DNA of 64,000 nucleotides. It comes from Xanthobacteraceae bacterium. Lineage in GTDB: Bacteria > Pseudomonadota > Alphaproteobacteria > Rhizobiales > Xanthobacteraceae. This document shows, piece after piece, positions 45,413 through 60,867 of the stretch (position 1 is the stretch's first letter; every line of letters begins with the position of its first letter). The stretch spans positions 1 to 64,000 of the forward strand of contig JAQGJU010000004.1 of the NCBI GenBank assembly GCA_028290465.1. The letters are read 5' to 3'. Position numbers and translations under genes: made by a program. The notes under the pieces were generated by a model. It was not told where the DNA came from and did no database searches. It worked only from the letters and a program-made list of their open reading frames with translations.

Positions 45413-46921
45413 ATGCACAATCCCGTTTTGTCTGCCTCCAAAACTAATTCCGGCATTTCGGGCCTCGATGACATTCTCTGTGGCGGCTTTGCCGACCGGC
45501 GCCTGTTCCTGGTCGAGGGCAGCCCTGGCTCGGGCAAGACCACCTTGGCCCTGCAATTCTTGATGGCCGGCGCGGCCGTGGGTGAAAAGGGTTTGTACAT
45601 CACACTGTCGGAAACCGAGGATGAATTGCGCCACGGCGCCGCCTCGCATGGCTGGAGCCTTAGCGACGACATCGACGTGTTCGAACTCGCGCCTCCGGAA
45701 AACCTGCTCGACGACGATCAGCAGCAGAGCCTGCTGTATTCGTCCGATCTCGAACTCGGCGAAACCACCAAGCGGATGTTCGAGGCGATGGACCGGGCGA
45801 AGCCCGTTCGCGTTGTCCTCGACAGCCTGTCGGAAATCCGTCTGCTGGCGCAGAGTTCGTTGCGCTATCGCCGCCAAATCCTGGCGCTGAAGCATTATTT
45901 CGCGCGCAAGGATGCGACCGTGCTGTTGCTCGACGACATGACGGCAGAAGCGACCGACAAGACGGTGCACAGTGTCGCGCATGGTGTGCTTCGGCTGGAG
46001 GAACTGGCGCCGAATTACGGCACCGAGCGCCGCCGGTTGAGGGTACTGAAATATCGCGGGCAGGCGTTTCGCGGCGGCTACCACGACTACGTCATCAAGC
46101 ATGGCGGCCTGCAGGTTTTTCCACGCCTCGTGGCGGCCGAATATCGCACCCGCAAGACCCAACCGGTGATGACCAGCGGCCTTAAGGAACTGGATCAACT
46201 GCTTGGCGGTGGGCTGGAACGCGGCTCAAGCGCGCTGGTGCTCGGGCCGGCGGGCTCCGGAAAGTCGCTGCTGGTGCTGCAATTCATCGCATCGGCGGTG
46301 GCGCGCGGCGAAACCGCGGCGCTGTTCGTGTTTGACGAAGAGCTCGGCCTGTTGTTTCAGCGCGCCAAGGCACTCAACATCGATCTCCAGGCCATGCATG
46401 ACAGCGGCAAGCTGTTCCTGGAGTCGATGGATGCCGCCGAATTGTCGCCGGGCGAATTCGCCCACAAGGTTCGGGCCTGCGTCGATCAGCATGCGGTGCG
46501 CACCGTCGTGATCGACAGCCTGAACGGCTATCAGAACGCGATGCCGGAAGAGCAATTCCTGATCCTCCATATGCATGAACTGCTGCAATATTTGAATCGC
46601 AGCGGCGCCACGACCTTCCTGACCGTCGCGCAGCATGGGCTCGTCGGGGACATGCAGGCGCCGGTGGACATCACCTATCTGGCCGACACTGTATTCCTGC
46701 TGCGCTATTTCGAAGCCGCCGGCCGAGTGCGGCGCGCGATCTCGGTGATCAAGAAGCGTACCGGCCCGCACGAGGACACCATCCGCGAATATCGGATCGG
46801 TGGGCGGGGCCTGAGCATCGGTCTTCCGCTTGAAGACTTTCAGGGCGTATTGCGTGGCGTGCCAACCTATGTCGGCAAAGCTGGACTAATGGATACCGGG
46901 TTGACGGGCACGCCATCGTGA
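45413..46921 (+). CDS. KaiC-like tandem RecA-fold ATPase
   Basis: The 502-residue protein has two KaiC/RadA-type ATPase domains: Walker A GSPGSGKTT at 36-44 and GPAGSGKSL at 278-286, each preceded by SGLDDILCGGF or SGLKELDQLLGGGLERGS. Walker B-like strands are RVVLDSLSE and TVVIDSLNG. No KaiA or KaiB is encoded nearby. In the second domain the LREYRIGGRGLSIG-like ending resembles bacterial KaiC homologues rather than DNA-repair proteins. Its TGA overlaps the GTG of the hybrid kinase gene (GTGA), so the two are made together and probably form a signalling pair. Confidence 0.88.
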   Translation: MHNPVLSASKTNSGISGLDDILCGGFADRRLFLVEGSPGSGKTTLALQFLMAGAAVGEKGLYITLSETEDELRHGAASHGWSLSDDIDVFELAPPENLLDDDQQQSLLYSSDLELGETTKRMFEAMDRAKPVRVVLDSLSEIRLLAQSSLRYRRQILALKHYFARKDATVLLLDDMTAEATDKTVHSVAHGVLRLEELAPNYGTERRRLRVLKYRGQAFRGGYHDYVIKHGGLQVFPRLVAAEYRTRKTQPVMTSGLKELDQLLGGGLERGSSALVLGPAGSGKSLLVLQFIASAVARGETAALFVFDEELGLLFQRAKALNIDLQAMHDSGKLFLESMDAAELSPGEFAHKVRACVDQHAVRTVVIDSLNGYQNAMPEEQFLILHMHELLQYLNRSGATTFLTVAQHGLVGDMQAPVDITYLADTVFLLRYFEAAGRVRRAISVIKKRTGPHEDTIREYRIGGRGLSIGLPLEDFQGVLRGVPTYVGKAGLMDTGLTGTPS

Positions 46922-48708
46922 ATATCGCCAGCCCTCCTAGTGCGAGCGTCGCCGAGCATCCGGAACGCGCGATTATTCTGGCGCCGCAGGGCCGCGATGC
47001 CAGGATCGCGGCTGGCATCCTGCACGAAGTCGGCATCGGCAGCGACATCGCGCACAGCCTGGACGAGCTGTTGCAGGCGATGCGCCGCGGTGCCGAGATT
47101 GCCGTCGTAACTGAAGAAGCGATCCGTACCGCCGACCTCAAGCCGTTGTCCGATTGGATTCACGGTCAGCCGCCCTGGGCGGATTTCCCGTTCATTCTTT
47201 TGACCGAGCGGGGCGGCGGCATCGAGCGCAATCCGACGGCCGGAAGGTTGATGCTGACGCTCGGCAACGTCACGTTTCTGGAGCGGCCGTTTCACCCGAC
47301 CACGCTGGTCAGCGTCGTGCGTACCGCGATGCGCGGCCGTCATCGGCAATATGAAGCGCGCGACCGCCTGGAGGCGCTGCACGAGAGCGAACTTCATGCC
47401 CGCAACGCGGAAGCCGAACTGCGCCGTTTCAACGAGACGCTGGAAGCCCGCGTCGCCGAGCGCACCTCCGAACTCGGCGCCGCGAACCGGCAATTGATGG
47501 GCCAGATCGAGGAACGCGAAAAGGTCGAAGCTACATTGCGTCAGATGCAGCGCCTCGAAGCCGTCGGCCAGCTCACATCCGGCGTCGCCCACGACTTCAA
47601 CAACCTTCTGACCGTCGTGCTCGGCAATGTCGGATTTCTTGAGCGCGAATTGCCGGCTGCCGGCGTCGACGGAAAATGCATGCGTCGTCTTAGCTTCATG
47701 CGTACCGCGGCCGAACGCGGCGCCAAACTGACCGCGCAATTGCTGGCGTTCTCGCGCCGGCAGCGGCTGGAGCCGAAGCCGCTCGACCTCAACGAGTCCC
47801 TCGATGGCATGCGCGACTTGTTGCAAAGCACACTCGGCGGCAGCGTGCAGGTCAACACCATGCTGCGGCCCGGCCTGTGGCCTGCGCTGGTCGATCCGAC
47901 GCAGATCGAACTCGTCGTGTTGAATCTTGCGATCAATGCCCGCGATGCGATGGAAGTCGGCGGACGGTTGACCATCGAGACCGCGAATGTGCGCATCGCC
48001 GTGCAGGAGCGGCCGGAACATCCCGCGCCCGGCGAATACGTCACGATCCGCGTGGCTGACACCGGCTCAGGCATGACGCCGGAGGTGCGGGTTAAAGTCT
48101 TCGAGCCGTTCTTTACGACGAAGGATGTCGGCAAGGGCTCGGGACTTGGTCTGAGCCAAGTGCTCGGCTTCGCCAAGCAGTCAGGCGGCGGCGTGCGGAT
48201 CGACACGCGGGTCGGCGAGGGCACCTCGGTGATCGTCTATTTGCCGCGGGCCCAGCACGCCGGAGTTGGACCGACGGTAGCGACCGCCGGAGCGCAGCAG
48301 AATTCGTATGCGCGCGGTTCCATCATTCTGCTGGTCGATGACGACAACGCGGTCCGCGAGGTCACGGCCTCGATGTTGTGCGATCTCGGCTATGTGGTGC
48401 GCGAAGTCGGCAGCGGCGGCGCGGCACTCGATCACCTCGAACGTCATGAGGATATTGACTTGGCGGTGCTGGATTTCGCGATGCCGGGCATGAATGGCGG
48501 CGACCTCGCGCGCCAAATTCAGGCCAAATGGCCGTCGATACCTATTCTGTTCGTCACCGGCTTTGCCGATATCACGGCGCTGGGCGAGGTCGGTGAGGAC
48601 CGAATCATCAAAAAGCCGTTCGTTGACGATGAGCTGGCCGTGAAGGTGCGCGCTGCACTGGCAGATAATCGGCGTGTCGCCGGCAATGTCGTGCGGTTGC
48701 GGCGATAA
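46918..48708 (+). CDS. hybrid histidine kinase coupled to KaiC-like protein
   Basis: The 596-residue protein has these parts in order: an N-terminal receiver-like domain (15-140) without a clear phospho-Asp; a coiled coil (~145-210); HisKA with His225 in SGVAHDFNNLL; HATPase with NLAINARDAM (N box), DTGSGM and GKGSGLGLS; and a C-terminal receiver with VDDDNAVRE and phospho-Asp in LAVLDFAMPG. No membrane helix is seen, so it is cytosolic. The start is GTG overlapping the KaiC-like stop by 4 bp. Coupling and the pseudo-receiver suggest that it reads the state of the KaiC-like ATPase. Confidence 0.9.
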   Translation: MNIASPPSASVAEHPERAIILAPQGRDARIAAGILHEVGIGSDIAHSLDELLQAMRRGAEIAVVTEEAIRTADLKPLSDWIHGQPPWADFPFILLTERGGGIERNPTAGRLMLTLGNVTFLERPFHPTTLVSVVRTAMRGRHRQYEARDRLEALHESELHARNAEAELRRFNETLEARVAERTSELGAANRQLMGQIEEREKVEATLRQMQRLEAVGQLTSGVAHDFNNLLTVVLGNVGFLERELPAAGVDGKCMRRLSFMRTAAERGAKLTAQLLAFSRRQRLEPKPLDLNESLDGMRDLLQSTLGGSVQVNTMLRPGLWPALVDPTQIELVVLNLAINARDAMEVGGRLTIETANVRIAVQERPEHPAPGEYVTIRVADTGSGMTPEVRVKVFEPFFTTKDVGKGSGLGLSQVLGFAKQSGGGVRIDTRVGEGTSVIVYLPRAQHAGVGPTVATAGAQQNSYARGSIILLVDDDNAVREVTASMLCDLGYVVREVGSGGAALDHLERHEDIDLAVLDFAMPGMNGGDLARQIQAKWPSIPILFVTGFADITALGEVGEDRIIKKPFVDDELAVKVRAALADNRRVAGNVVRLRR

Positions 48709-48812: not shown

Positions 48813-51140
48813 TTACAATTTTGCCCGCAGCCCAACATATGCGGCGAGTGGCGCACCCGGCGTCATCATGCGCGGATCGGTGACGTTCAGGAACGGGATC
48901 GATTCGGCCTCGAAGAACGTGCCGAACGTATAATAGTGCTTGTTGAACAGGTTCTGCACCAGGCCGAACACTTCGATGTTCGGCGTCACCTTGTACGAGG
49001 AGTGCAGGTTCACCATCCAATAGCTCGGCAGCATCGCATTCAGGTTGGATTCGTCGCCGCGCAGATACTGGCCGCTGGTCGCGACAAGATCAGCCCCGAG
49101 CTTCCACTTTTCATCGAACGCATATTCGGCGCCCGTCTTGAACCGGTGGCGCGGCATGCTCGGCATCACGTTGCCGGGCGAGACCGTGATGGTGCCGTCG
49201 GGCGACGCCATCGGGTTGTCGGGCGATTGCAGCGTCAGCGTGCTCTGGAAGGTGGCTTCGAGGTACGTGTAGTTGGCGTAGACCTGCCATTCCTTGGACT
49301 GGAACGTAACGGCCGCTTCGAATCCGCGTCGCCGCGTATCGCCGGCGTTCTGGAAATAGCCGCGCCCGGCGATGTCGCTTGCCACGTTGATAATGTCGTT
49401 GCTGTTGCGGGTGTGGAATAAGCCCAGGTTCCAGACCAGTTGGCCGTGCAGCGGCCCGGCGTCGAACCGGCCGCGCAGGCCGGCCTCATAAGTATGCGAC
49501 ACCACCTGCTGCAACGGCGGATCGGCCACCAGGAAATTGTCCAGGAGACACGGCCGCGCCGGATCGCTGCAGCCGAGCTCGGCCGGCGTCGGCGCGCGGT
49601 TGGCTTCCGAGTAGCCGAGATAGGCGGTGATCCCCGGCGTCAGCTTATAGGTCGCACCGATCACCGGATTGAAACGGCTGAACAGATGCGAGCCGTTCAG
49701 CGCGGTGCCGAGCTGATCCTCCAGCTTGATCTGCGCCATATTGAACCGTCCACCGGCTGTCACCGATAGTGCCGACGTGACGTCGAAGGTGTTGGTCGCA
49801 TAGAAGCCCGTATAGGTGCTGGTGGTATCCAGTGAGACCGGCGCGATGTCGGCGGCCGGCTGCTGGACGATGACACCGGTGCCCGTAACGAACAGGTCGG
49901 ACCCGATGGTGCCGAGCTCGCTGTCAGCCTTGAAGTTCACCCGGCCGCGATCGATCGCGACGCCGGCGACGAATTGATTGCCGTGTTCGAACAGCCGCGC
50001 GGCGCTGATGGCCTGCAGCGAGCCGCCGAATGTGTCGGCTTTGGTGTTAGTGCGGTCGACGGCTCCGGGCACGTTGCCGCCGAGGATCGAGGCCGCGACC
50101 GTGCTGCCGCTGGTGCTGATCAATTGCGTGGTGTCGTCGCCGATGCAGAGCAGCGTATCGAACGGCGCGGCGCAGACCTCGACCACGGATGTATTGCCGT
50201 CGACATGCTTCTGCCGGAAGCCGCGATAGTAAAAGTTGCCCTGCAATGACAACGTATCCGTCATGGCATATTTGCCGCTGGCGTTGAGAAAGATCAGCTC
50301 GTTCTTGGTGGTCTGCGGCGTGGTGTAGACGCTGTGCCAATTCTGTTCGAGCATCTGCACCGGGGTCGGCCCGGTGGCGCCGAACCGGTTGGACGCAGTG
50401 GTGAAGTTGAAATGAAACTCGGTCTTCTCGCCGCGCACGCCGATGTCGCCAAAGATGCGCCGCAGCCGCGAATCCGAGCGGGCACGCCAACCGTCGTCCT
50501 TCAGGGCGTCGGCCGCGATGTAGCCGGCCACATTGCCGCGCTGGCCGCCGACCTGCGCCGACATCGCCTGTCGGCCGAACGAGCCGCCGCGTATTTCGGC
50601 TTCGGCGCCCTGATAGGTGAAGCCATCCTTCATGGTGACGACGACCGCGCCGCCGAGCGCGTTGAGGCCGAACACCGGATTGTTCGGCACCACGTTCATG
50701 CGGTCGATGGCGTTTTCCGGGATGAAATCCCAGTTGACGGTGTCACCGAAGGTTTCGTTGATGCGCACGCCGTTCTGGTAAACGGCTAGCCCCTGCGCGG
50801 TGCCGACCACCGGCGAAGCGACGAAGCCGCGATATTGAATATCCGGCTGAAACGGATTGCCGGCCACATCGGTGATCAGCAGGCCCGGTATGCGCCGCTG
50901 CATCGCATCGGCGAGGCTCGATGTCTTGGCGGTGTCGAAATCGGCCGGCGTCAGAATATGGGTGTTGGCCGGAACCTTGTCGCGATCGCTACTCTGCGAC
51001 AGCGGCGAGGAGGCGATGACTTCGATTTCGGGCAGCACATCTGAACTGGCGGTCTGTGCGCCGGCCGGACCGGTCAGCGACAGGGGGAGCGACAGCGCGA
51101 TCAGGCTGGTGCCCCACAGCCATGCCTTGCCCGTGCCCAT
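48813..51140 (-). CDS. TonB-dependent outer-membrane receptor
   Basis: The 775-residue receptor starts MGTGKAWLWGTSLIALSLPLSLTGPAGAQ (signal peptide; GGGGGA upstream of the ATG). A short linker with a possible TonB box (LPEIEVIAS) and the plug domain follow (SLADAMQRRIPGLLITDVAGNPFQPDIQYRGF ... NNPVFGLNALGGAVVVTMKDGF). Many beta strands come next, and the end EVFGLVQNLFNKHYYTFGTF...PGAPLAAYVGLRAKL is the typical last strand. The ligand is unknown. It lies 163 bp downstream of a two-component regulator gene, co-directional with H4MPT/methanofuran genes, so a metal chelate needed for C1 metabolism is a reasonable hypothesis. Confidence 0.92.
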   Translation of the reverse strand: MGTGKAWLWGTSLIALSLPLSLTGPAGAQTASSDVLPEIEVIASSPLSQSSDRDKVPANTHILTPADFDTAKTSSLADAMQRRIPGLLITDVAGNPFQPDIQYRGFVASPVVGTAQGLAVYQNGVRINETFGDTVNWDFIPENAIDRMNVVPNNPVFGLNALGGAVVVTMKDGFTYQGAEAEIRGGSFGRQAMSAQVGGQRGNVAGYIAADALKDDGWRARSDSRLRRIFGDIGVRGEKTEFHFNFTTASNRFGATGPTPVQMLEQNWHSVYTTPQTTKNELIFLNASGKYAMTDTLSLQGNFYYRGFRQKHVDGNTSVVEVCAAPFDTLLCIGDDTTQLISTSGSTVAASILGGNVPGAVDRTNTKADTFGGSLQAISAARLFEHGNQFVAGVAIDRGRVNFKADSELGTIGSDLFVTGTGVIVQQPAADIAPVSLDTTSTYTGFYATNTFDVTSALSVTAGGRFNMAQIKLEDQLGTALNGSHLFSRFNPVIGATYKLTPGITAYLGYSEANRAPTPAELGCSDPARPCLLDNFLVADPPLQQVVSHTYEAGLRGRFDAGPLHGQLVWNLGLFHTRNSNDIINVASDIAGRGYFQNAGDTRRRGFEAAVTFQSKEWQVYANYTYLEATFQSTLTLQSPDNPMASPDGTITVSPGNVMPSMPRHRFKTGAEYAFDEKWKLGADLVATSGQYLRGDESNLNAMLPSYWMVNLHSSYKVTPNIEVFGLVQNLFNKHYYTFGTFFEAESIPFLNVTDPRMMTPGAPLAAYVGLRAKL

Positions 51141-51303
51141 GAGCATTCCCCCACGCCCGACATACGGTCTCGCGGCAAATGCTAACGATGGCGATAGACC
51201 GCTTCGCAACTGTCGAATGCGCGGCGGGCGCTGTCTTGGTCAGATTGTCCAATTGTGGGCGGGAACAAGTGGCAATGGCTTGCGACGGGCGAAGCGGAAC
51301 GGC

Positions 51304-51939
51304 TCACGAAGCGGCCGGAACAAGCTGGGTCGCGGCGCGGATCAGTTCCGGCAGGGTGCGCAGGCCAAGCTTCTGCTTGAGCTGGTAGCAGAGGTTGACC
51401 ACGGTCTTATAGCTGACGCCGAGTTCGCTCGCGATGATGCCGTAGGACTTTCCTTCCGCCAGCAGCGCCAGCGCCTGCAATTCGCGCGGCGTCAATTGCG
51501 CCAGCGGATCGCGCCGCACCCCGGTCGCCGACAGCGCGACCTGGGTCGCCACATCGGGACTGAGATAGGGTTTTCCGGCCCGCACCTTCTCAAATGCCAG
51601 AACCAGTTCCTCCGGCGAGGTGTCCTTGAGCAGGTAACCTGTAGCACCTGCTTCAAGTGCCCGCGTTACGATGATCGGATCGGCATGCATGCTGAATACC
51701 AGGATGCGGGTGCTGTGGCCGCGCGCGCGAATACGCCGGATCAGGGCGAGGCCCGCCAAGCCGCTGTTCTGCATCGACAGATCGACGATCATCACGTCCG
51801 GGCGATGCCGAAGATACTGTCGGTAACCGGAAACAGGATCGCGCGCCTCGAACACGTCGCGCATGCCGGCATCGAGCAGGATGCGCCGGCAGCCCTGCAG
51901 CACGATCGGGTGGTCGTCGACGATCAGTACCGAGGTCAT
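51304..51939 (-). CDS. NarL/FixJ-family response regulator
   Basis: The 211-residue protein has a receiver domain (VLIVDDHPIVLQG; phospho-Asp53 in MIVDLSM; conserved Ser/Thr and Lys in FSMHAD and YLLKDTSPEE). A LuxR-type helix-turn-helix follows (LTPRELQALALLAEGKSYGIIASELGVSYKTVVNLCYQLKQKLG). The recognition helix reads KTVVNLCYQLKQKL rather than the usual KTVxxHxxxIxxKL. It overlaps the kinase gene by 4 bp. Its pairing with C1 genes recalls the FlhR regulator of Paracoccus formaldehyde metabolism, an analogy only. Confidence 0.9.
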   Translation of the reverse strand: MTSVLIVDDHPIVLQGCRRILLDAGMRDVFEARDPVSGYRQYLRHRPDVMIVDLSMQNSGLAGLALIRRIRARGHSTRILVFSMHADPIIVTRALEAGATGYLLKDTSPEELVLAFEKVRAGKPYLSPDVATQVALSATGVRRDPLAQLTPRELQALALLAEGKSYGIIASELGVSYKTVVNLCYQLKQKLGLRTLPELIRAATQLVPAAS

Positions 51940-53438
51940 GGCAGGCCGCCCTTCGGTTTGGCGAATTCACGACTGCCGGCGGTCTGAGCGCGCACCGGAA
52001 TCATGACCCGCACGCAGGTGCCGCGCCCGGCGAGGCTCTCCAACCCATGCTCGCCGCCGAGTGCGTGCACGCGTTCCTGCATGCCGGTGAGGCCGAAGCC
52101 CGGCCGGGCATTCGGCTCCATGCCGCGCCCGTCGTCGCGCAAGGTCAGCGTCAGATTGGATGCGGTGCCGTCGGGCATCTCGCCGATGTCGATATCGACG
52201 CGGTTGGCGTCGGCGTGGCGCAGCGCGTTGGTCAGGCCTTCCTGGACGCAGCGATAAATCGTCAGATCGACGCTGTCGCCATAGCTGTCGCGCAACTGGC
52301 CGGTCCGGAGTGCGAACGCGATATCGGGCTGCTGGCGGGCGCGTTCCTGCACCATCTCCGACAGCAGGTCGCCGAGCGGCAGATGTCCGAGCGCCATCGG
52401 CCGCAGCCGGTTCAGCATGCGCCGGTTCAGGCCTTGCAGATGATCGATGATCGTCTGCATCTCCCGCACCCGTTCGGCGATCTTGCTGGCCGTCGTGGTT
52501 CTGGCCTTGCCGAGCACGAGACCGATCGAACCGGCGCTGGCCTTGAGGCCGAACAACGACGGGCCGACTTCGTCGTGCAGTTCCAGCGCCACGCGCCGTC
52601 GCTCGTCGTCCTGCGCGGTGATGACCCGGCGGCTGAGGCGGATGTTTTCAGCCCGTGCGGCCTCGAGTGCCGATGCCAGGGCGTTGAATCGATCCGTAAT
52701 GCCGGAAAGTTCGCGCGCGCGGGGGTCTGTCAGCCTTACCGTATAGTTGTGCCGTTCGAGATCGCGCATGCCGCCGGCGAGGCCGGCGAGCGGCCGCAGC
52801 AGATGGCCGAAGATCACATAAAGCGCGCCGATCAAGACCAGATGCCCGACCAGCGCGACGGCGCCGAGCGCCAGCGTGTTCTCCCAGACTTCCGCGATCT
52901 CGTCGCTCGGTTCGCCGACAATGACCAGCGAGCCGATAGCGCGGCCATCGACGACGACCGGCAATTCGTGCCGGCGCGGCGGCGGCCGGATCAGGGCGGC
53001 GAACCACGCGGGCGTTCGCGGGTCGGTCCAATTCGCAGCATCGGGGCTTGTCGGCGGCGTGACGTCCTTGGCGCTGACATCGACCACATGGATGCGTACA
53101 TGGCGCAGCACCTGCAAGGGCGATGGCAGCCGCGACATCAGGTCCTGCGCCGAGCCGTCCTGCTGGGCGAGGCGCAATGTCTCGGAGGCCAGACGCTCGG
53201 CCAGTTGCATCGAAGCCGCGATCTCGATCCGCGTGGAAGCGCGGGCCTGCCAGATGATGATCGCCCCGGCGATCGATGCCGCGATCAGGTCGAGCACGAT
53301 GAAGGCCAGCAGAAGCTGTGCCCGGATCGAGCGGCGATGCCATAACGCGCCGAACAGGCCGCGCGGGCGCGGGAACAACTCGGCCGGCGGTCCGGTCGCG
53401 GTGCCGCGAAGGTCGTGGGGGCGGGACGGCCGGTTCAT
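51936..53438 (-). CDS. NarX/FlhS-like membrane sensor histidine kinase
   Basis: The 500-residue kinase has membrane helices at about 41-63 and 189-209 that bound a ~125-residue periplasmic domain, then a HAMP-like segment (RPLAGLAGGMRDLERHNYTVRLTDPR). HisKA_3 has His288 in LELHDEVGPSLFGLKASAG, and the HATPase has DDGRGM and GFGLTGMQERV. This architecture fits kinases that pair with NarL-type regulators, and one lies immediately downstream (4-bp overlap). Its own ATG overlaps the stop of the MfnF-like gene by 4 bp, so sensing and cofactor synthesis genes share a transcript. Confidence 0.9.
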   Translation of the reverse strand: MNRPSRPHDLRGTATGPPAELFPRPRGLFGALWHRRSIRAQLLLAFIVLDLIAASIAGAIIIWQARASTRIEIAASMQLAERLASETLRLAQQDGSAQDLMSRLPSPLQVLRHVRIHVVDVSAKDVTPPTSPDAANWTDPRTPAWFAALIRPPPRRHELPVVVDGRAIGSLVIVGEPSDEIAEVWENTLALGAVALVGHLVLIGALYVIFGHLLRPLAGLAGGMRDLERHNYTVRLTDPRARELSGITDRFNALASALEAARAENIRLSRRVITAQDDERRRVALELHDEVGPSLFGLKASAGSIGLVLGKARTTTASKIAERVREMQTIIDHLQGLNRRMLNRLRPMALGHLPLGDLLSEMVQERARQQPDIAFALRTGQLRDSYGDSVDLTIYRCVQEGLTNALRHADANRVDIDIGEMPDGTASNLTLTLRDDGRGMEPNARPGFGLTGMQERVHALGGEHGLESLAGRGTCVRVMIPVRAQTAGSREFAKPKGGLP

Positions 53439-54526
53439 GTGACACCCGTCAATGTGTCGGCGGGCATCACATCGTGCGCGGCATGCGACGCCAGCAGCGC
53501 GACCGCGGCGGCCGGTGCGCCATACGTCGCTGCGGCGCGTGCTTCGGGTGTGGCGTCGAACACCGTATCGAACGAGACATGATGGCGGCCGAGGCGCCGG
53601 GCGATGTCATGCGCGACCGTTTCGCCGATGCCGGCGACGACCAGTGGCGCGTCCGGCGGCAGCGCAGCCTGTGAGAGCACCAGCATGGCGGAATCCAGCA
53701 CGGTGCTGACCTGAGCTTCCGCGAACCAGCGCGCCAGCTCGAACCAGGCTTCATCGTTCGCGTCACCGGCATCGCGCCCGACGATGCGCGCCAGCCGTGC
53801 GCGCGAGGCCGGGATGGTCTTTTCCCGCCCGTCGGCGGTCGACATTTGGTCGGCGCCGTCCGGTAGCGTACCGAGAATGCGATGCACGTCCGCCATGGTG
53901 GCGAAATTTTCCCTAATCAATGGCGTCCACTGGCCGGCGAACGGCGCCCGCTCCGAGATCGCCATCAGGAAGCTGCGCACCATGCCGGTGTAGACGAGTT
54001 CGCCGTGTGCAAGACGTTCGGCGTCCGTATAGCCGCGCGCCGCAACGCTGCCGTTGCGGACAGGAACGAGATCGGTCGTGGTCGATCCGATATCGACGAA
54101 CAGCGCATCCGTGTGGGTGCGCGCCGCCATCGCCGCGCTGGCGTGCCAGTTGGCCGAGGCGATGTCCGCGACGTGCTGGCCGGCGCGATCCGCCGCGATA
54201 AAGCCGGCACGGCCGGCATAGAGCCTGATCGGGCCGAGTTCCTGTTCGGCGGCGGCGGCCAGGAGCGCGACGCCTTCGCTGCGCGACGTGAAGGTGTCGG
54301 CAAGCTCCCCGGTCATGGTGACGGCGTGCACATCCGCGTCGCCCATCGCGGCTTTCGCTTCCGCGAAAGCCTGCCCGAGCCGCTCCAGGCCATAGCGCAG
54401 CGGCGAGGCGACCTGCACGGCCGCGACGATCCGGCCGTTTTCGGCACGCGCGGCCTTGAGATGGGCGCCGCCGATGTCCCAGCCGATGACGACATGTGGA
54501 GTGCCGGGTTTGGCGGTGCCGTGCAT
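53435..54526 (-). CDS. H4MPT-linked C1 pathway protein, hydantoinase/ASKHA fold, MfnF-like
   Basis: The 363-residue protein has the ASKHA start VIGWDIGGAHLKAARAENG and a second nucleotide-binding stretch TDALFVDIGSTTTDLVPVRNGSV. TMTGELADTF and LVVAGIGETVAHDIARRLG also fit the 'H4MPT-linked C1 transfer pathway' family. Archaeal members include MfnF, which joins the furan and tyramine halves of methanofuran. A role in building the methanofuran-type cofactor used by Fhc is therefore likely. It diverges from the HisA-like gene (38 bp) and is coupled to the downstream sensor kinase. Confidence 0.85.
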   Translation of the reverse strand: MHGTAKPGTPHVVIGWDIGGAHLKAARAENGRIVAAVQVASPLRYGLERLGQAFAEAKAAMGDADVHAVTMTGELADTFTSRSEGVALLAAAAEQELGPIRLYAGRAGFIAADRAGQHVADIASANWHASAAMAARTHTDALFVDIGSTTTDLVPVRNGSVAARGYTDAERLAHGELVYTGMVRSFLMAISERAPFAGQWTPLIRENFATMADVHRILGTLPDGADQMSTADGREKTIPASRARLARIVGRDAGDANDEAWFELARWFAEAQVSTVLDSAMLVLSQAALPPDAPLVVAGIGETVAHDIARRLGRHHVSFDTVFDATPEARAAATYGAPAAAVALLASHAAHDVMPADTLTGVT

Positions 54527-54564
54527 TAGCGTATACCCGTTTCGGAACTGGCGGAGGCGCTGGC

Positions 54565-55284
54565 GTGCAGGTGATTCCGGTGATCGATCTCAAAGCGGGA
54601 ATCGTCGTTCATGCCCGCATGGGACAGCGCGACCGGTACCGGCCGATCGAAACCCCGTTGTCGGCGACCAGCGATCCGGTCGATGTAACGCGCGGACTGA
54701 TGTCGTTGTATCCGTTCAAGACGCTCTACGTGGCCGACCTCGACGCCATCGAACGCAACGGCGACAACCGCGCGGCGCTCGCGCGTGTGAAGGCGGCATT
54801 TCCCGGCCTCACGCTGTGGGTCGACAACGGCATCGGGTCGCTGAACGCCGCTGCGGACTTCATTGAAACCGAACTCGGCCATCTGGTCCTCGGTTCTGAG
54901 ACGCAGACCGGTCTCGATGTGGTGCGCCACTTTTCCAACGATCCGCGCGCGGTGCTGTCGCTCGATTTTCGTACGGACGCATTTCAAGGTCCGCCAGCGC
55001 TGCTGGTGGACCCGACGTGCTGGCCGCGCCGCGTGATCGCGATGACGCTGGCCCGGGTCGGTAGCGGCGCCGGCCCGGATCTCGAACGACTGCGCACGAT
55101 CCGCGACGCTGCCGCAAAAGACACGGCGACAAGTCGACAGGTCTACGCGGCCGGCGGCATCCGCGATGCCGCCGACCTTGCGACCCTCCAACAACTCGGC
55201 ATCGCGGGCGCGCTGGTCGCCTCGTGTCTGCATGACGGACGGCTGCGTGGCGAGGAGATTGCCAAGCTTCACATGCGTCCGTGA
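54565..55284 (+). CDS. HisA/HisF-related TIM-barrel protein of the H4MPT cluster
   Basis: From a GTG with GGAGG upstream, the 239-residue protein reads QVIPVIDLKAGIVVHARMGQRDRYRPI, similar to HisA openings. It then has LYVADLDAIERNG (HisA-like Asp), LWVDNGIGS, VLGSETQT, LSLDFRTDAFQG and QVYAAGGIRDAADLATLQQLGIAGALVASCLHDG, with two phosphate-binding loops. It is not expected to be the histidine enzyme, since it is alone among C1 genes. Homologues recur in methanofuran/H4MPT clusters, where a step in cofactor synthesis is assumed but unproven. Confidence 0.8.
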   Translation: MQVIPVIDLKAGIVVHARMGQRDRYRPIETPLSATSDPVDVTRGLMSLYPFKTLYVADLDAIERNGDNRAALARVKAAFPGLTLWVDNGIGSLNAAADFIETELGHLVLGSETQTGLDVVRHFSNDPRAVLSLDFRTDAFQGPPALLVDPTCWPRRVIAMTLARVGSGAGPDLERLRTIRDAAAKDTATSRQVYAAGGIRDAADLATLQQLGIAGALVASCLHDGRLRGEEIAKLHMRP

Positions 55285-55356: not shown

Positions 55357-55866
55357 CTAGTTCGGCGCGAACGGATGCTTGGCTTGGTCGCGTTTCGCGA
55401 CGACCTCGGAAACCTTCGGTTCTCCGGCCACGGCGCGGGCAATGGCTTCCTTGGTGGCCGCGTAATTGTAATCCTGGATCTTCTTGTCATCGGCGGCGTC
55501 CCAGTGGATGAACACACCGACGCAGATAAACAGGTCGTCGGCTTCGTCCTGCGGGATCACGCCCTCGGCGACGCTGTCGGCCACGGCCTTCGCGACGCCA
55601 TGCTGCGCCGGGCCGAACATCTGCACCGCCTGCTTCGCGCCTTTGATGGTCACCTTGTTGAACATCACCGTCGCCGGCTTGCAGATTAGGTTCGGCGCGA
55701 TCACGGCGAGCAGCGACGTGAAGCCGTCCTTGTTGTTGGTCAGGGCGTGTGCGAACGCGGTTTCGGCGGCGCCGCCGCGTGGCCCGATCAGCAGATCGAT
55801 ATGGGCCACTTCGTTGCCGTCGCCGATCAGCGACTCTCCGACGCAAAGTTTGGTGATTTTCGCCAT
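55357..55866 (-). CDS. fae: formaldehyde-activating enzyme
   Basis: Fae condenses formaldehyde with H4MPT to methylene-H4MPT, both detoxifying it and feeding oxidation. The 169-residue protein is nearly canonical from end to end: [25 protein letters not shown] (with the conserved His22), [55 protein letters not shown] and [16 protein letters not shown] very strong ribosome-binding site (GGGAGGAG) precedes the ATG, consistent with high expression. It has its own 150-bp upstream region. Confidence 0.97.
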
Positions 55867-56892: not shown

Positions 56893-57839
56893 GCCTGCGC
56901 CTCGCGAACTGTTCCGGCGCGCAGCACTTCGACCAGATCCCGGACCAGCACGGCCGCGATGCTGGCCGGCGTCACCTTCTGGAGGCCGGACCAAGCCGGC
57001 ATACTGTTGACCTCAATCACGGTGGCACGGCCTTGCGCATCGTGGATGATATCCACGCCTGCAAAGTTAGCACCGATCGCCGCCGTGGCTCGCAGGGCGA
57101 GATCTTTCATCTCGGCATCCGGAACCGCGAACACCGGACGGCCGCCCTGCTTGACGTTGGTGATCCACTGATCGGCGTGGCGCACCATCGCGGCCACGAC
57201 GCGGCCCTGCGACACCAGCAGACGAAAATCGCGATAGCCGTCACGCTCGATGCCGACATAGCGTTGCAGATAGTACACGCCGGCTGCTTCCGCCGGTGCC
57301 GGCAGGTCGTTCTCGCCATGGATCAGCCGCAGGCCACGGCCCTGCGAGCCAAACAGCGGCTTGAACACCAGCGAACCCGCGGGCGTTTCGCGCCGCACGA
57401 TGGCCTTGGCGACATCGAGCGCTTCCACCGCCCAGGTTTCCGGCGTCGCGATGCCGGCACGGGCCAGCACGAAACTGGTCATCGATTTGTCGACGCAGCG
57501 CTCGATGGCGCGCGCGTCGTTCCACACCGGAACGCCCAACTCACGCAATGCATGCAGGATGCCGAGCCGCAAGGTGACGGCTTGAAAGCTGCCGCCCGCC
57601 ATCGACCGGACCATGACGGCATCCGGCAGTGCGTCGCCGAAGCCCGCGATGGTCAGGCCGAATGGTGTGGATGTTGCAATGCCGCATGACGATAAATTGA
57701 CCGGCACCGCGCGCACGCGATGCTTGGCGAACGCCTCGATGAGTTTCCGCGCATGCCAATCGACCCGGTCGACGACCAGCGCGATACGCAATTTCGGTAG
57801 TGTCGGCAGTGGCGCGTTGGCTTCAAGCGAATGAGGCAT
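56889..57839 (-). CDS. RimK-like ATP-grasp ligase of the H4MPT cluster
   Basis: The 316-residue protein has an ATP-grasp core: SLVFKPLFGSQGRGLRLI (ATP-binding loop), VYYLQRYVGIERDGYRDFRLLVSQGRVVAAMVRHADQWITNVKQGGRPVFAV and GVDIIHDAQGRATVIEVNSMPAWSGLQKV (metal-binding Glu/Asn). RimK-type enzymes add glutamate by acyl-phosphate chemistry. The archaeal MptN homologue glutamylates H4MPT, so a side-chain ligation on H4MPT or methylofuran is likely. It overlaps mch upstream by 17 bp and the CitG-like gene downstream by 4 bp. Confidence 0.85.
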   Translation of the reverse strand: MPHSLEANAPLPTLPKLRIALVVDRVDWHARKLIEAFAKHRVRAVPVNLSSCGIATSTPFGLTIAGFGDALPDAVMVRSMAGGSFQAVTLRLGILHALRELGVPVWNDARAIERCVDKSMTSFVLARAGIATPETWAVEALDVAKAIVRRETPAGSLVFKPLFGSQGRGLRLIHGENDLPAPAEAAGVYYLQRYVGIERDGYRDFRLLVSQGRVVAAMVRHADQWITNVKQGGRPVFAVPDAEMKDLALRATAAIGANFAGVDIIHDAQGRATVIEVNSMPAWSGLQKVTPASIAAVLVRDLVEVLRAGTVREAQA

Positions 57840-58824
57840 CGAGCAGACTCGGATTGATCTGGCCGCGATGCACCGTCTCGCCGGTCTCCAGCGCGGTTAT
57901 CGTCACCTGTGCCGGACTGAACAGCATCGGATCGATGGCGTAGAAGTCGCCCTTGAAATGCCGGAACACCTCGGCGAATGGCCGGCCGTAGTCGCGCGAG
58001 CGCTCGCTCGGCAATTGATCGGCCAGCGCGCGCGCGTCTTCGACAGGGCCGCTGACGAACAGATGCACTTGCCCGGCATAGATGATCGCATCATTGGTGC
58101 GGCCCATCGCGGCGACGAAGTCCGGGTGCGGCGGCGGCAGCGGTGCCGTGCCCATGCCGTCGAGGATACGCTCCAGCGGGAATTTCAATTCGTGCGCTTT
58201 GTGCAGCGCGACCTCGAGGACGCGCGCGGCGATCTGCACGCTGCCGGCCAGACTCTGGGTCGGCGCGTACAGGATGGTCAAATGCTCGGGCGAGACGCCG
58301 CATTCCTGCGCCACCTTGGCGACGAGTGCGGTTGGCGGCGGACGGGCGCTTTCCAGCACCAGCGTCGCGCTGGTCGTGCTGTCCGCATAGGCGAGATGGG
58401 CGAACGCAGGATTCTCGAACAACGGCTCGCCGCGCGCCAGCGCCCGCGCCGGGCCGGAGCCGAGCGCCATGAACGCATCCCGGCCTTCGCCGTCAGAAAG
58501 GCGCCATCCGGCATATTGGCTGGCCAGGCACGCGATCACCGGATCGGACGAGCGCACCGCCACCGACCACGGCCATCGCGGCACGGTCGCATTCGGGATA
58601 AGGCTCACCACGCCGAGCCCGCCCATGCAGACCTCGGCCATGCGAAGGCCGGCCGCGATACCGCCGACATGCTCGGCGCCGGCATCGATCAGAGTTTCGC
58701 CGAGTTCGCCGCGCGCGATGCCGATGCGCAGTTCCAGCGCTTCGGCCTTCATGCGTTCGACCAGCGCCGCCGCGCGTTCGTTGATACTGTTTGCCGTGCT
58801 GGTGATCGGGCTTGATTGGCTCAT
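57823..58824 (-). CDS. mch: methenyl-H4MPT cyclohydrolase
   Basis: Mch interconverts methenyl-H4MPT and 5-formyl-H4MPT. The 333-residue protein has SINERAAALVERM, GIARGELGETLIDAGAEHVGGIAAGLRMAEVCMGGLG, PWSVAVRSSDPVIACLASQYAGW, MALGSGPARALA, VSPEHLTILYAPTQSLAGSVQIAARVLEVALHKAHEL and FYAIDPMLFSPAQVTITALETGE, all standard for the family. The ATG at 58824 is set by homology and overlaps the preceding ATP-grasp stop (ATGA). Confidence 0.96.
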   Translation of the reverse strand: MSQSSPITSTANSINERAAALVERMKAEALELRIGIARGELGETLIDAGAEHVGGIAAGLRMAEVCMGGLGVVSLIPNATVPRWPWSVAVRSSDPVIACLASQYAGWRLSDGEGRDAFMALGSGPARALARGEPLFENPAFAHLAYADSTTSATLVLESARPPPTALVAKVAQECGVSPEHLTILYAPTQSLAGSVQIAARVLEVALHKAHELKFPLERILDGMGTAPLPPPHPDFVAAMGRTNDAIIYAGQVHLFVSGPVEDARALADQLPSERSRDYGRPFAEVFRHFKGDFYAIDPMLFSPAQVTITALETGETVHRGQINPSLLDASFA

Positions 58825-59963
58825 GATCGCCACTCCCGCGCCGCCGCCACGATCGCGTCGACGCGTTCCAGCGCACGGGCCTTGGCCTGCGCGGATGTCG
58901 GTGCCATCGCGAATACCGTGCACAGCGGGTAGCCGGCCGGCACCGATGTTCCGGCACGTGGCCGGTCGGCGGTCCAGTCCGGCCAGTCGTGCGCCGGCAC
59001 ATAGGCGATGTCGTGATCGGCATAGACCAGCGCGGATGCGTGTGCACCGGTTAGCGCGGGAAGATTGGCAGGCAGGGTGCCGCGGCAGGCGGCGACATGC
59101 AACGCGAACAGAGAATTGTGTCGTGCGTCGCCAGCCTCGGTCGAATCGAAGATATCCAGCGTCGCGCCGGGACGCGGATTGACCTCCAACATCCAGTGTC
59201 GGTCATCGACAAGAAAATCCACGCTGTTCAGGCCGACCAGCGGCACTTTCGTCATCAGGCGGGCAACGCAAATAGCGATGTCGCTCTCGCAGCCCGGCGC
59301 GACGATGGCCGGTCGCACCGCGCCACCGTAACGGAACGGTTTGCCGCGCGTCGGCGTCGCCCATTGTGTGCTCAGGCCCAGCAGCATCGCGTTTCGGCCA
59401 TCGGCAAGGATCAGCGCCGAGACCGGCACGCCCTCGACACGGTGCTGGAAGTACTGCGAGGCGCTACGGCCATCATTCGGCGTCGCCGGCCGGACATGGC
59501 CGCCGCCGGAGCCGCCACAGCGCTTGACCAGCCAGTGTGTCGGGTCATCCGGCGGCGTGTCGGATGTCTCGGGATGCAGAATACCACCGGCCTCGCACAG
59601 TTCCGAGAAGCACTGCGGATCTTTCAGCAGCGCCACGGTGTCCGGCGTATTGCCCAGCAGCCGCCAGCGTCGGCCAAGGGCGGCGAGCACGCCCGTGCGA
59701 TCCTCGAACCCGGTGCCGTAAACGACGCCGATCGGCGGCTGGGTGCTGGAGGCGCCCAGCATCTCGCATGCAGTCATCAGCGCGGCTTCGTTCATGCCGT
59801 GCGACAGTGGAAGATCGAGAGTCACATGTTGCTGCGCGATCGCGAGCGTATCCGCGTCGCCAAAGAAATCGGCGACTAAAGGCGCATAGCCGCCTCGACG
59901 GGCGGAGGCGGCGAGAGCGCGGCCGGACACCGCGGCGATCAGCACGGCGTTCTCCCTATCCAT
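58821..59963 (-). CDS. ATP-grasp protein of the H4MPT cluster (Orf17-type)
   Basis: The 380-residue protein has an ATP-grasp arrangement: HWLVKRCGGSGGGHV (glycine-rich ATP loop), YFQHRVEGVPVSALILADG, LVGLNSVDFLVDDRHWMLEVNPRPGATLDIFD (metal-binding EVNPRPG). The N-terminal ~130 residues form a pre-ATP-grasp domain. Archaeal MfnD (tyramine-glutamate ligase) is an ATP-grasp enzyme of methanofuran synthesis. This gene may do a comparable ligation, but direct orthology is not shown. It overlaps mtdB upstream by 8 bp and mch downstream by 4 bp. Confidence 0.82.
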   Translation of the reverse strand: MDRENAVLIAAVSGRALAASARRGGYAPLVADFFGDADTLAIAQQHVTLDLPLSHGMNEAALMTACEMLGASSTQPPIGVVYGTGFEDRTGVLAALGRRWRLLGNTPDTVALLKDPQCFSELCEAGGILHPETSDTPPDDPTHWLVKRCGGSGGGHVRPATPNDGRSASQYFQHRVEGVPVSALILADGRNAMLLGLSTQWATPTRGKPFRYGGAVRPAIVAPGCESDIAICVARLMTKVPLVGLNSVDFLVDDRHWMLEVNPRPGATLDIFDSTEAGDARHNSLFALHVAACRGTLPANLPALTGAHASALVYADHDIAYVPAHDWPDWTADRPRAGTSVPAGYPLCTVFAMAPTSAQAKARALERVDAIVAAAREWRS

Positions 59964-60852
59964 TGAGCTCGCGGGCGAGCGCGAAGGCGTCGCGGAAATC
60001 GAAGCTGACCGGCTTCGTGGCCGCGATCATTTTCTGGAACAGGCCGAACTCGGTCTTGTACTTGATGTTGCCGATGGCGAGCGGGCCGATGCCGAGCGTG
60101 CCGTGCGCCGTCAGTTCGCTGCCATTGGCATTCATCTCCAACCCTTCGACGCCGGTCGGCGGCACCGCGTTGACGTCGGCCACGACCAGCAGAGTTGTCG
60201 CCGCCCCAAGTTGGGCGCGCGACAGGATCTGCACGCCGGCTCGTCCGGCACACAGTGCGACTTCCGTTTCGGACAAAATCTTGGTTTTCTTCGCATCGTC
60301 GCTGCCATCGGTGACATTCACGTCGATCTCGAAACGCTTTTTTATTTCCTGCGCGCTGTCGCCGACGCGTTTGACGCCGTCATGGCCGACCAGCGTAAGC
60401 TTGGCCCCTTCCAGCGCCGCAATGACGGCGGCCGAAAAGCCGACCACGCCGGTCGCGCCGAAAACAGCTATCTTCAGACCTTTCAGGTCACGGTTTTTTT
60501 TGGTCTTCAGGGTGTGCTCGACGCAGGCCGCCATCGCGGCCGCCGTGGTGAATGAGCCCGCCGGGTCGGCGAAAAAAGAGATCGCGAACGGCGGCACCAA
60601 CGCCTTCTTGGCAGCGGCCAGCATGTCGAGCGCCTGGATCGCATTCTTGCCGCCAAAGAACATGCCGGTCTTCACGCCCATCTTCGGCGCGCGGGAAAAG
60701 ATCGCGTCCTGAACGAGGCCCGTCACTTCTTCGAGCGTCGCGTTCGGATAGGTCAGCGTCGCGTCATAGCCGGCATCGAGCGCCATGTTGACGTCGAACG
60801 GGCTCATGTGCTTTTGCGGCGTGACCATGTGAAGAATGTGCTTGTCCGCCAT
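59956..60852 (-). CDS. mtdB: NAD(P)-dependent methylene-H4MPT dehydrogenase
   Basis: MtdB oxidises methylene-H4MPT to methenyl-H4MPT with NAD+ or NADP+. The 298-residue protein begins MADKHILHMVTPQKHMSPFDVNMALDAGYD. It has KTGMFFGGKNAIQALDMLAAAKKALVPPFAISFFADPAGSFTTAAAMAACVE, the Rossmann motif KIAVFGATGVVGFSAAVIAALEGAKLTLVG, and LLVVADVNAVPPTGVEGLEM. It aligns by eye with MtdB rather than MtdA because of the DPAGSFTTAAAMAACVE block. The ATG at 60852 has GGGAGA upstream. Confidence 0.94.
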   Translation of the reverse strand: MADKHILHMVTPQKHMSPFDVNMALDAGYDATLTYPNATLEEVTGLVQDAIFSRAPKMGVKTGMFFGGKNAIQALDMLAAAKKALVPPFAISFFADPAGSFTTAAAMAACVEHTLKTKKNRDLKGLKIAVFGATGVVGFSAAVIAALEGAKLTLVGHDGVKRVGDSAQEIKKRFEIDVNVTDGSDDAKKTKILSETEVALCAGRAGVQILSRAQLGAATTLLVVADVNAVPPTGVEGLEMNANGSELTAHGTLGIGPLAIGNIKYKTEFGLFQKMIAATKPVSFDFRDAFALARELNG

Positions 60853-60867
60853 CAATGTCTCCCGCGA

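Follow-up and report, generated by a model that had tools for sequence, protein, structure and literature searches.

A putative lanthanide acquisition-and-sensing gene row within the tetrahydromethanopterin/methylofuran cluster of a Xanthobacteraceae bacterium

How bacteria sense lanthanides is an openly unsolved question (PMC5018670, PMC6115532, PMC11845868), and receptors or sensors encoded beside methanol genes already have precedents. In Methylorubrum extorquens the receptor gene lutH is repressed fourfold by lanthanum (PMC7391723), the receptor gene tonB_Ln of Methylobacterium aquaticum 22A adjoins the two-component genes mxcQE (PMC9260416), a TonB receptor with LutB/LutA homologues lies beside xoxF1 in Methylocella silvestris (PMC9291206), and the kinase MxaY controls the lanthanide switch of Methylomicrobium buryatense (PMC5018670). 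The window analysed here (64,000 nucleotides, positions 1 to 64,000 of contig JAQGJU010000004.1, labelled C103 and ending at 70,220, of assembly GCA_028290465.1, Xanthobacteraceae bacterium, of soil type) holds a row of four minus-strand genes: an mfnF-like gene, a sensor kinase, a NarL-type regulator and a TonB-dependent receptor. An earlier note on this DNA had proposed a lanthanide or metal-chelate import and sensing module tied to the tetrahydromethanopterin (H4MPT) pathway, and homology and genomic context support that proposal; at a probability of about 0.72, the row is a lanthanide acquisition-and-sensing unit, made up of a lutH-like receptor and a MoxY/MoxX-type pair, within an H4MPT/methylofuran cluster. 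The evidence comprises gene order, protein families, the receptor clade, repeated neighbours, a sensor motif, and the lutABEF and pqqBC genes of the same genome. The coupling, which the note considered unusual, is so only in part, given the tonB_Ln and xoxF1 loci cited above; the new element is the sensor motif.

Open reading frame (ORF) coordinates read from the sequence bear out the layout described in the note, with all four ORFs co-directional, overlaps of 4 bp at both the mfnF-like/kinase and kinase/regulator junctions, and the receptor following on the same strand. The gap of 163 bp from the regulator stop to the receptor holds for a receptor start at the ATG of 51140, where a signal peptide begins; the full receptor ORF spans 48813-51209 and opens with a TTG at 51209. 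The first gene of the row scores 336 bits with TIGR03123 (cut-off 244), the model for the bacterial H4MPT-linked protein Orf9, and 131 bits with the archaeal MfnF equivalog NF040623 (cut-off 520), outside which it falls. Orf9 is the bacterial homologue of MfnF (PMC8141765), and the note's label of 'MfnF-like' is the right wording because the gene lies above the first cut-off and below the second.

The receptor carries the plug (PF07715) and barrel (PF00593) of the TonB fold, both above cut-off. Relatives came from 120 genomes of the family, 297 of the order and named public contigs, and in a quick tree of 72 receptors, with long outgroup branches, the window receptor and 62 relatives form one LutH-like clade (63 rows; SH-aLRT, an approximate likelihood ratio test, 100; stem 0.88), with Escherichia coli BtuB, FepA, CirA, FecA, FhuA and PqqU and the three other receptors of the same genome outside it. 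Despite the long outgroup branches, the identities agree with the tree, at 35-63% within the clade and no higher than 29% outside it, where matches are short or weak. Two members, L185 and L187, have the gene order lutA-lutB-..-lutE-lutF-..-TonB-lanM, the order of the M. extorquens lut cluster (PMC7391723), and served as gene-order stand-ins for the LutH of strain AM1. The window receptor is 43-44% identical to these receptors of methylobacterial lut-lanM arrangements, whereas its matches to E. coli BtuB, FhuA, FecA, CirA and PqqU are short or weak and stay below 30% identity. By sequence comparison with these stand-ins the receptor is LutH-like, and the phylogeny suggested in the note does not cluster it with vitamin B12 or siderophore receptors.

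Several receptor residues, namely D156 in the plug, C547 and C554 of a two-cysteine loop, D563 and D605, are common to 63/63 clade members and are not generally so in the outgroup receptors. A clade-specific acidic plug motif, N-E-x-F-x-D ... D (residues 151-161 of the window receptor), and the invariant two-cysteine loop (547-554) are candidates for ligand binding. A PDB sequence search with the receptor returned distant siderophore receptors only. A transducing receptor of the FecA type with FecIR partners was considered and set aside, since Pfam reported the plug and barrel and no STN signalling domain, and the neighbours are a two-component pair.

The neighbourhoods of the relatives point in the same direction as the tree. 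In the stretch read around each receptor, lanmodulin (lanM), lutABEF, pyrroloquinoline quinone (PQQ) methanol/alcohol dehydrogenase, pqqBC or H4MPT genes were found near 36 of 61 relatives and a kinase of the same family as that of the window near 27 of 61; such genes were found near none of the three paralogous receptors of the same genome (0/3). Lanmodulin (NF053806, above cut-off) adjoins the receptor in L035, L063 and Methylobacterium nodulans (L153). Across the 120 family genomes, PQQ methanol dehydrogenase occurs in 27/32 receptor-bearing and 7/88 receptor-free genomes (counted only at E 1e-140 or better to the query, a copy in G030 truncated by the contig end being included as well) and lanmodulin, counted down to 94 bits, in 21/32 and 2/88, respectively, counts that ignore shared ancestry, which inflates them. 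Additionally, a NitT/TauT-type ATP-binding cassette (ABC) transporter recurs beside LutH-like receptors in six loci (L035, L050, L052, L063, L130 and L190), and about 13 kb of L192 (genome G282) hold mxaFJG, a LutH-like receptor and two MoxYX-type pairs. On a plasmid of Methylocystis iwaonis (L238), a TonB receptor accompanied by a regulator and kinase of its own lies beside an mxa cluster and pqqA; this group was left out of the counts on account of its siderophore-type receptor.

The kinase has a LapD/MoxY periplasmic sensor domain at about residues 62-185 (PF16448 LapD_MoxY_N, 27 bits against a cut-off of 25) followed by HAMP, HisKA_3 (PF07730) and HATPase_c domains, and the regulator is of the NarL type (PF00072 and PF00196). 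In the kinase tree it falls in a 19-row clade (SH-aLRT 99) with L041-L049 and L192, kinases divergent from mxaFJG (L041, L046 and L192 among them). In Paracoccus methylovorus moxZ, a 'LapD/MoxY' kinase carrying the motif described below and a regulator are divergent from moxFJGI. On domains and tree position, the window kinase is classed as MoxY/MxaY type.

An alignment of the MoxY/MxaY set revealed a motif, E72 ... R112-H113 ... D179-E180-x-x-E183, of which E72, R112, H113, E180 and E183 are kept in 49/49 kinases and D179 in 48/49, some of these just 25-31% identical; the set was picked by similarity, so that the link to the motif is a correlation, and it leaves out the distant kinase L210, which has YExxE. 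Six LapD/MoxY-type paralogue kinases from the same searches, which differ from the Methyloprofundus kinase about as much as many members of the set do, keep PxWF and W185 and have lost DExxE, most of them also the rest of the motif, and the solved LapD-type domain 4u64 likewise lacks DExxE. In an AlphaFold2 model of the sensor domain (mean predicted local distance difference test score, 80), E72 lies on the long helix after the first transmembrane helix and DExxE starts the helix that turns into the second, which would place both near the membrane. In a fold search with this model, a modelled WalK complex was the single match below E 0.001, and 4u64 ranked third (E 0.12). The E147G change in M. 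buryatense MxaY makes the kinase constitutively active and abolishes the lanthanum response (PMC5018670), and, since the motif glutamates are at E141/E144 and E143/E146 in two gamma kinases (L069 and L209), E147 is probably one of the DExxE glutamates. No description of the E72/RH/DExxE motif was found in the literature searched. Direct binding of Ln3+ by E72, D179, E180 and E183 is possible, with the odds somewhat against it. It is suggested tentatively that the whole motif forms a direct Ln3+-sensing site by the membrane, that kinases carrying it read periplasmic lanthanide and that in this lineage the sensor drives lanthanide import together with the H4MPT/methylofuran branch.

The row sits immediately beside further genes of one-carbon (C1) cofactor metabolism (Table 1), with fae, mch, mtdB and fhc-type genes (the last two by inspection and neighbourhood) upstream. 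In G055, a genome of another genus, mtdB, mch and fae precede mfnF, which is followed after about 20 bp by histidine kinase, response regulator and TonB receptor, with xoxF 20 kb away; its receptor belongs to a different branch of the clade, so that the row in G055 is not merely a recent copy of that in the window. The order mch-orf-orf-fae-kinase-regulator occurs in G004, a lutA-like gene, TonB receptor, mfnF, hisAF and fae follow one another in G067, the receptor is near fae, mch and pqqBC in G030, and xoxF, TonB receptor, mtdB and mfnF occur together in G041 and G113; in G002 and most genomes mfnF is apart from the kinase, regulator and receptor. Because of the recurrences in G055, G004 and G067, the row appears to be more than a chance arrangement. 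Elsewhere in the window, at 45413-48708 on the plus strand, a double-domain KaiC-like ATPase gene overlaps by 4 bp the gene of a receiver-bearing hybrid histidine kinase, and the two are convergent to the receptor gene.

Table 1. Features of the gene row, the sensor motif and the neighbouring C1-cofactor genes (positions in the window)
Feature	Position	Strand	Basis or remark
MfnF-like (Orf9-type) methylofuran biosynthesis gene, heads the row	53435..54526	-	363 aa; TIGR03123 336 bits
MoxY/MxaY-type sensor histidine kinase	51936..53438	-	500 aa; PF16448, PF00672, PF07730, PF02518; kinase tree
Codon of E72, first periplasmic helix	53223..53225	-	49/49; helix in model
Codons of R112-H113, pair ahead of sensor-domain strand	53100..53105	-	49/49
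Codons of D179-E180-x-x-E183, acidic motif just ahead of second membrane helix	52890..52904	-	Alignment of 49 kinases
NarL/LuxR-type response regulator (MoxX-like)	51304..51939	-	211 aa; PF00072 and PF00196
Intergenic stretch, regulator to receptor	51141..51303	-	163 bp, read from sequence
LutH-like TonB-dependent receptor, plug and barrel	48813..51140	-	PF07715, PF00593; tree; clade-specific residues
HisA/HisF-like gene of C1-cofactor cluster, divergent from mfnF	54496..55284	+	PF00977; TIGR00734 below cut-off
fae, formaldehyde-activating enzyme	55357..55866	-	TIGR03126 260 bits
mch, methenyl-H4MPT cyclohydrolase	57823..58923	-	TIGR03120 377 bits
mtdB-like methylene-H4MPT dehydrogenase	59956..60855	-	Inspection and conserved neighbourhood

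In the proposed working of the unit, the receptor would carry a lanthanide chelate over the outer membrane, and further handling would fall to a LutABEF-type ABC system whose genes lie on another contig. The kinase would read periplasmic lanthanide, or a lanthanide-loaded protein, via its LapD/MoxY domain, and the regulator would adjust lutH and methanol-oxidation genes. With mfnF at the head of a presumably co-transcribed row, sensing and uptake would sit beside the cofactor for the formaldehyde made by the lanthanide-dependent methanol dehydrogenase, and placement in the H4MPT/methylofuran cluster could allow metal supply, enzyme and formaldehyde disposal to be matched to one another.

Several observations weigh against a lanthanide unit, beyond the effect of ancestry on the co-occurrence counts. 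The searches proposed in the note came back negative: no xoxF or mxaF gene for a PQQ methanol dehydrogenase was found in the 5.53-Mb assembly (TIGR03075 and a methanol dehydrogenase query, two independent searches), nor lanmodulin in the assembled genome, and the assembly is rated 100% complete. No recognised C1 or lanthanide gene is present in the stretch read for 25/61 receptor relatives, blanks that include short contigs and metagenome-assembled genomes of methanotrophs, and the closest relatives are functionally uncharacterised. The Paracoccus MoxY-type kinases were first tied to methanol oxidation rather than lanthanides, and the receptor may have its own promoter in the 163-bp gap, where a scan, itself uninformative, found no sigma-70-like consensus.

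The XoxF premise of the note is drawn from the gene order at the contig break, and pqqBC and lutABEF are present in the genome. The pqqBC genes are on contig C15, and contig C29 encodes lutA (TIGR03863, 478 bits), lutB (77% identical to a Bradyrhizobium protein), lutE and lutF, with a PedC-type permease (TIGR03861). On C29:1-11167 (L181), MfnB-, MfnE- and AfpA-like cofactor genes are divergent from this lutABEF-type operon, and the contig stops within lutF. C103 (L123, 67290-70220) stops at 70,220 within a quinoprotein-relay metallohydrolase gene (residues 145-283 of 283 of TIGR04559), which is preceded by a gene for a quinoprotein-associated SoxYZ-like carrier (TIGR04557). Two ORFs matched to these by size and direction, not family, lie in G021 between fhc-side H4MPT genes and xoxF. 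Because of this order and the break within the quinoprotein-relay gene, xoxF most likely lies just beyond the end of C103, a true loss from the genome being a conceivable alternative.

The evidence can also be read in other ways. The receptor might import PQQ, as its top NCBIfam name is NF041535 PqqU and pqqBC lie near some relatives, but the score of 116 bits is a tenth of the cut-off of 1200 and places it outside that family, E. coli PqqU is 27% identical over 298 aa and outside the clade, and the genome has its own pqqBC, making this extremely improbable. Nor is there more than a negligible chance that it is an ordinary iron-siderophore or B12 receptor present by accident: generic matches to such models are weak and all under cut-off, and tree position and gene neighbourhoods contradict it. 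On profile scores and the tree, uptake of PQQ, B12 or siderophores was rejected.

A different possibility accepts a lanthanide-specific receptor and assigns to the two-component system the sensing of a C1 compound, methanol or formaldehyde, merely turning on the whole C1 set. MoxYX in Paracoccus and FlhSR-type systems govern methanol/formaldehyde genes, and kinase and regulator directly follow fae in G004 and lie beside mxaFJG in several genomes. This is nevertheless unlikely, as the related MxaY runs a lanthanide switch and becomes lanthanide-blind by one Glu-to-Gly change (PMC5018670), and same-family kinases recur beside LutH-like receptors at the frequency given above. The separation of mfnF from the other three genes in most genomes would fit a row in which kinase, regulator and receptor jointly serve lanthanides and mfnF is adjacent by chance, without shared control; the 4-bp overlaps, the rows in G055, G004 and G067, and lutABEF next to MfnB/MfnE-like genes on C29 make this quite unlikely. 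A lanthanide acquisition-and-sensing unit coupled to the C1-cofactor cluster is therefore the preferred reading. A receptor-sensor pair and a few residues for mutation emerge from the row, along with a suggested place for the known lanthanide-blind mutation. In two places of one genome, putative lanthanide uptake genes stand among cofactor genes for formaldehyde oxidation, so that import, sensing and product disposal may be jointly controlled.

Compared with the lut cluster of M. extorquens AM1 (PMC7391723), the genome shares a receptor of the clade found in lutAB..EF-TonB-lanM arrangements and a LutABEF-type operon, but does not have lutABEF, lutH and lanM together: the operon is on C29 and the receptor on C103, each beside methylofuran/H4MPT genes, and the receptor is diverged from L185/L187 to the extent noted above. 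The tonB_Ln-mxcQE locus of M. aquaticum 22A (PMC9260416) likewise places a lanthanide TonB receptor next to a co-directional two-component system, which is MxcQE there and of the MoxY/MoxX type here, and only here is a C1-cofactor gene nearby. Pseudomonas putida, with PedS2/PedR2 and PedA1A2BC (PMC6115532, PMC6839425), similarly combines a sensor-regulator pair and an ABC system for the lanthanide response, whereas the periplasmic domain of PedS2 is not of the LapD/MoxY type and the system serves alcohol oxidation, not the H4MPT pathway. The MxaY of M. buryatense (PMC5018670) and the Paracoccus MoxYX share the LapD/MoxY-type sensor kinase, and MoxYX is divergent from the moxF operon, as are relatives of the window pair; the window pair, in a genome assembly without a detected mxaF, is joined instead to a LutH-like receptor and mfnF.

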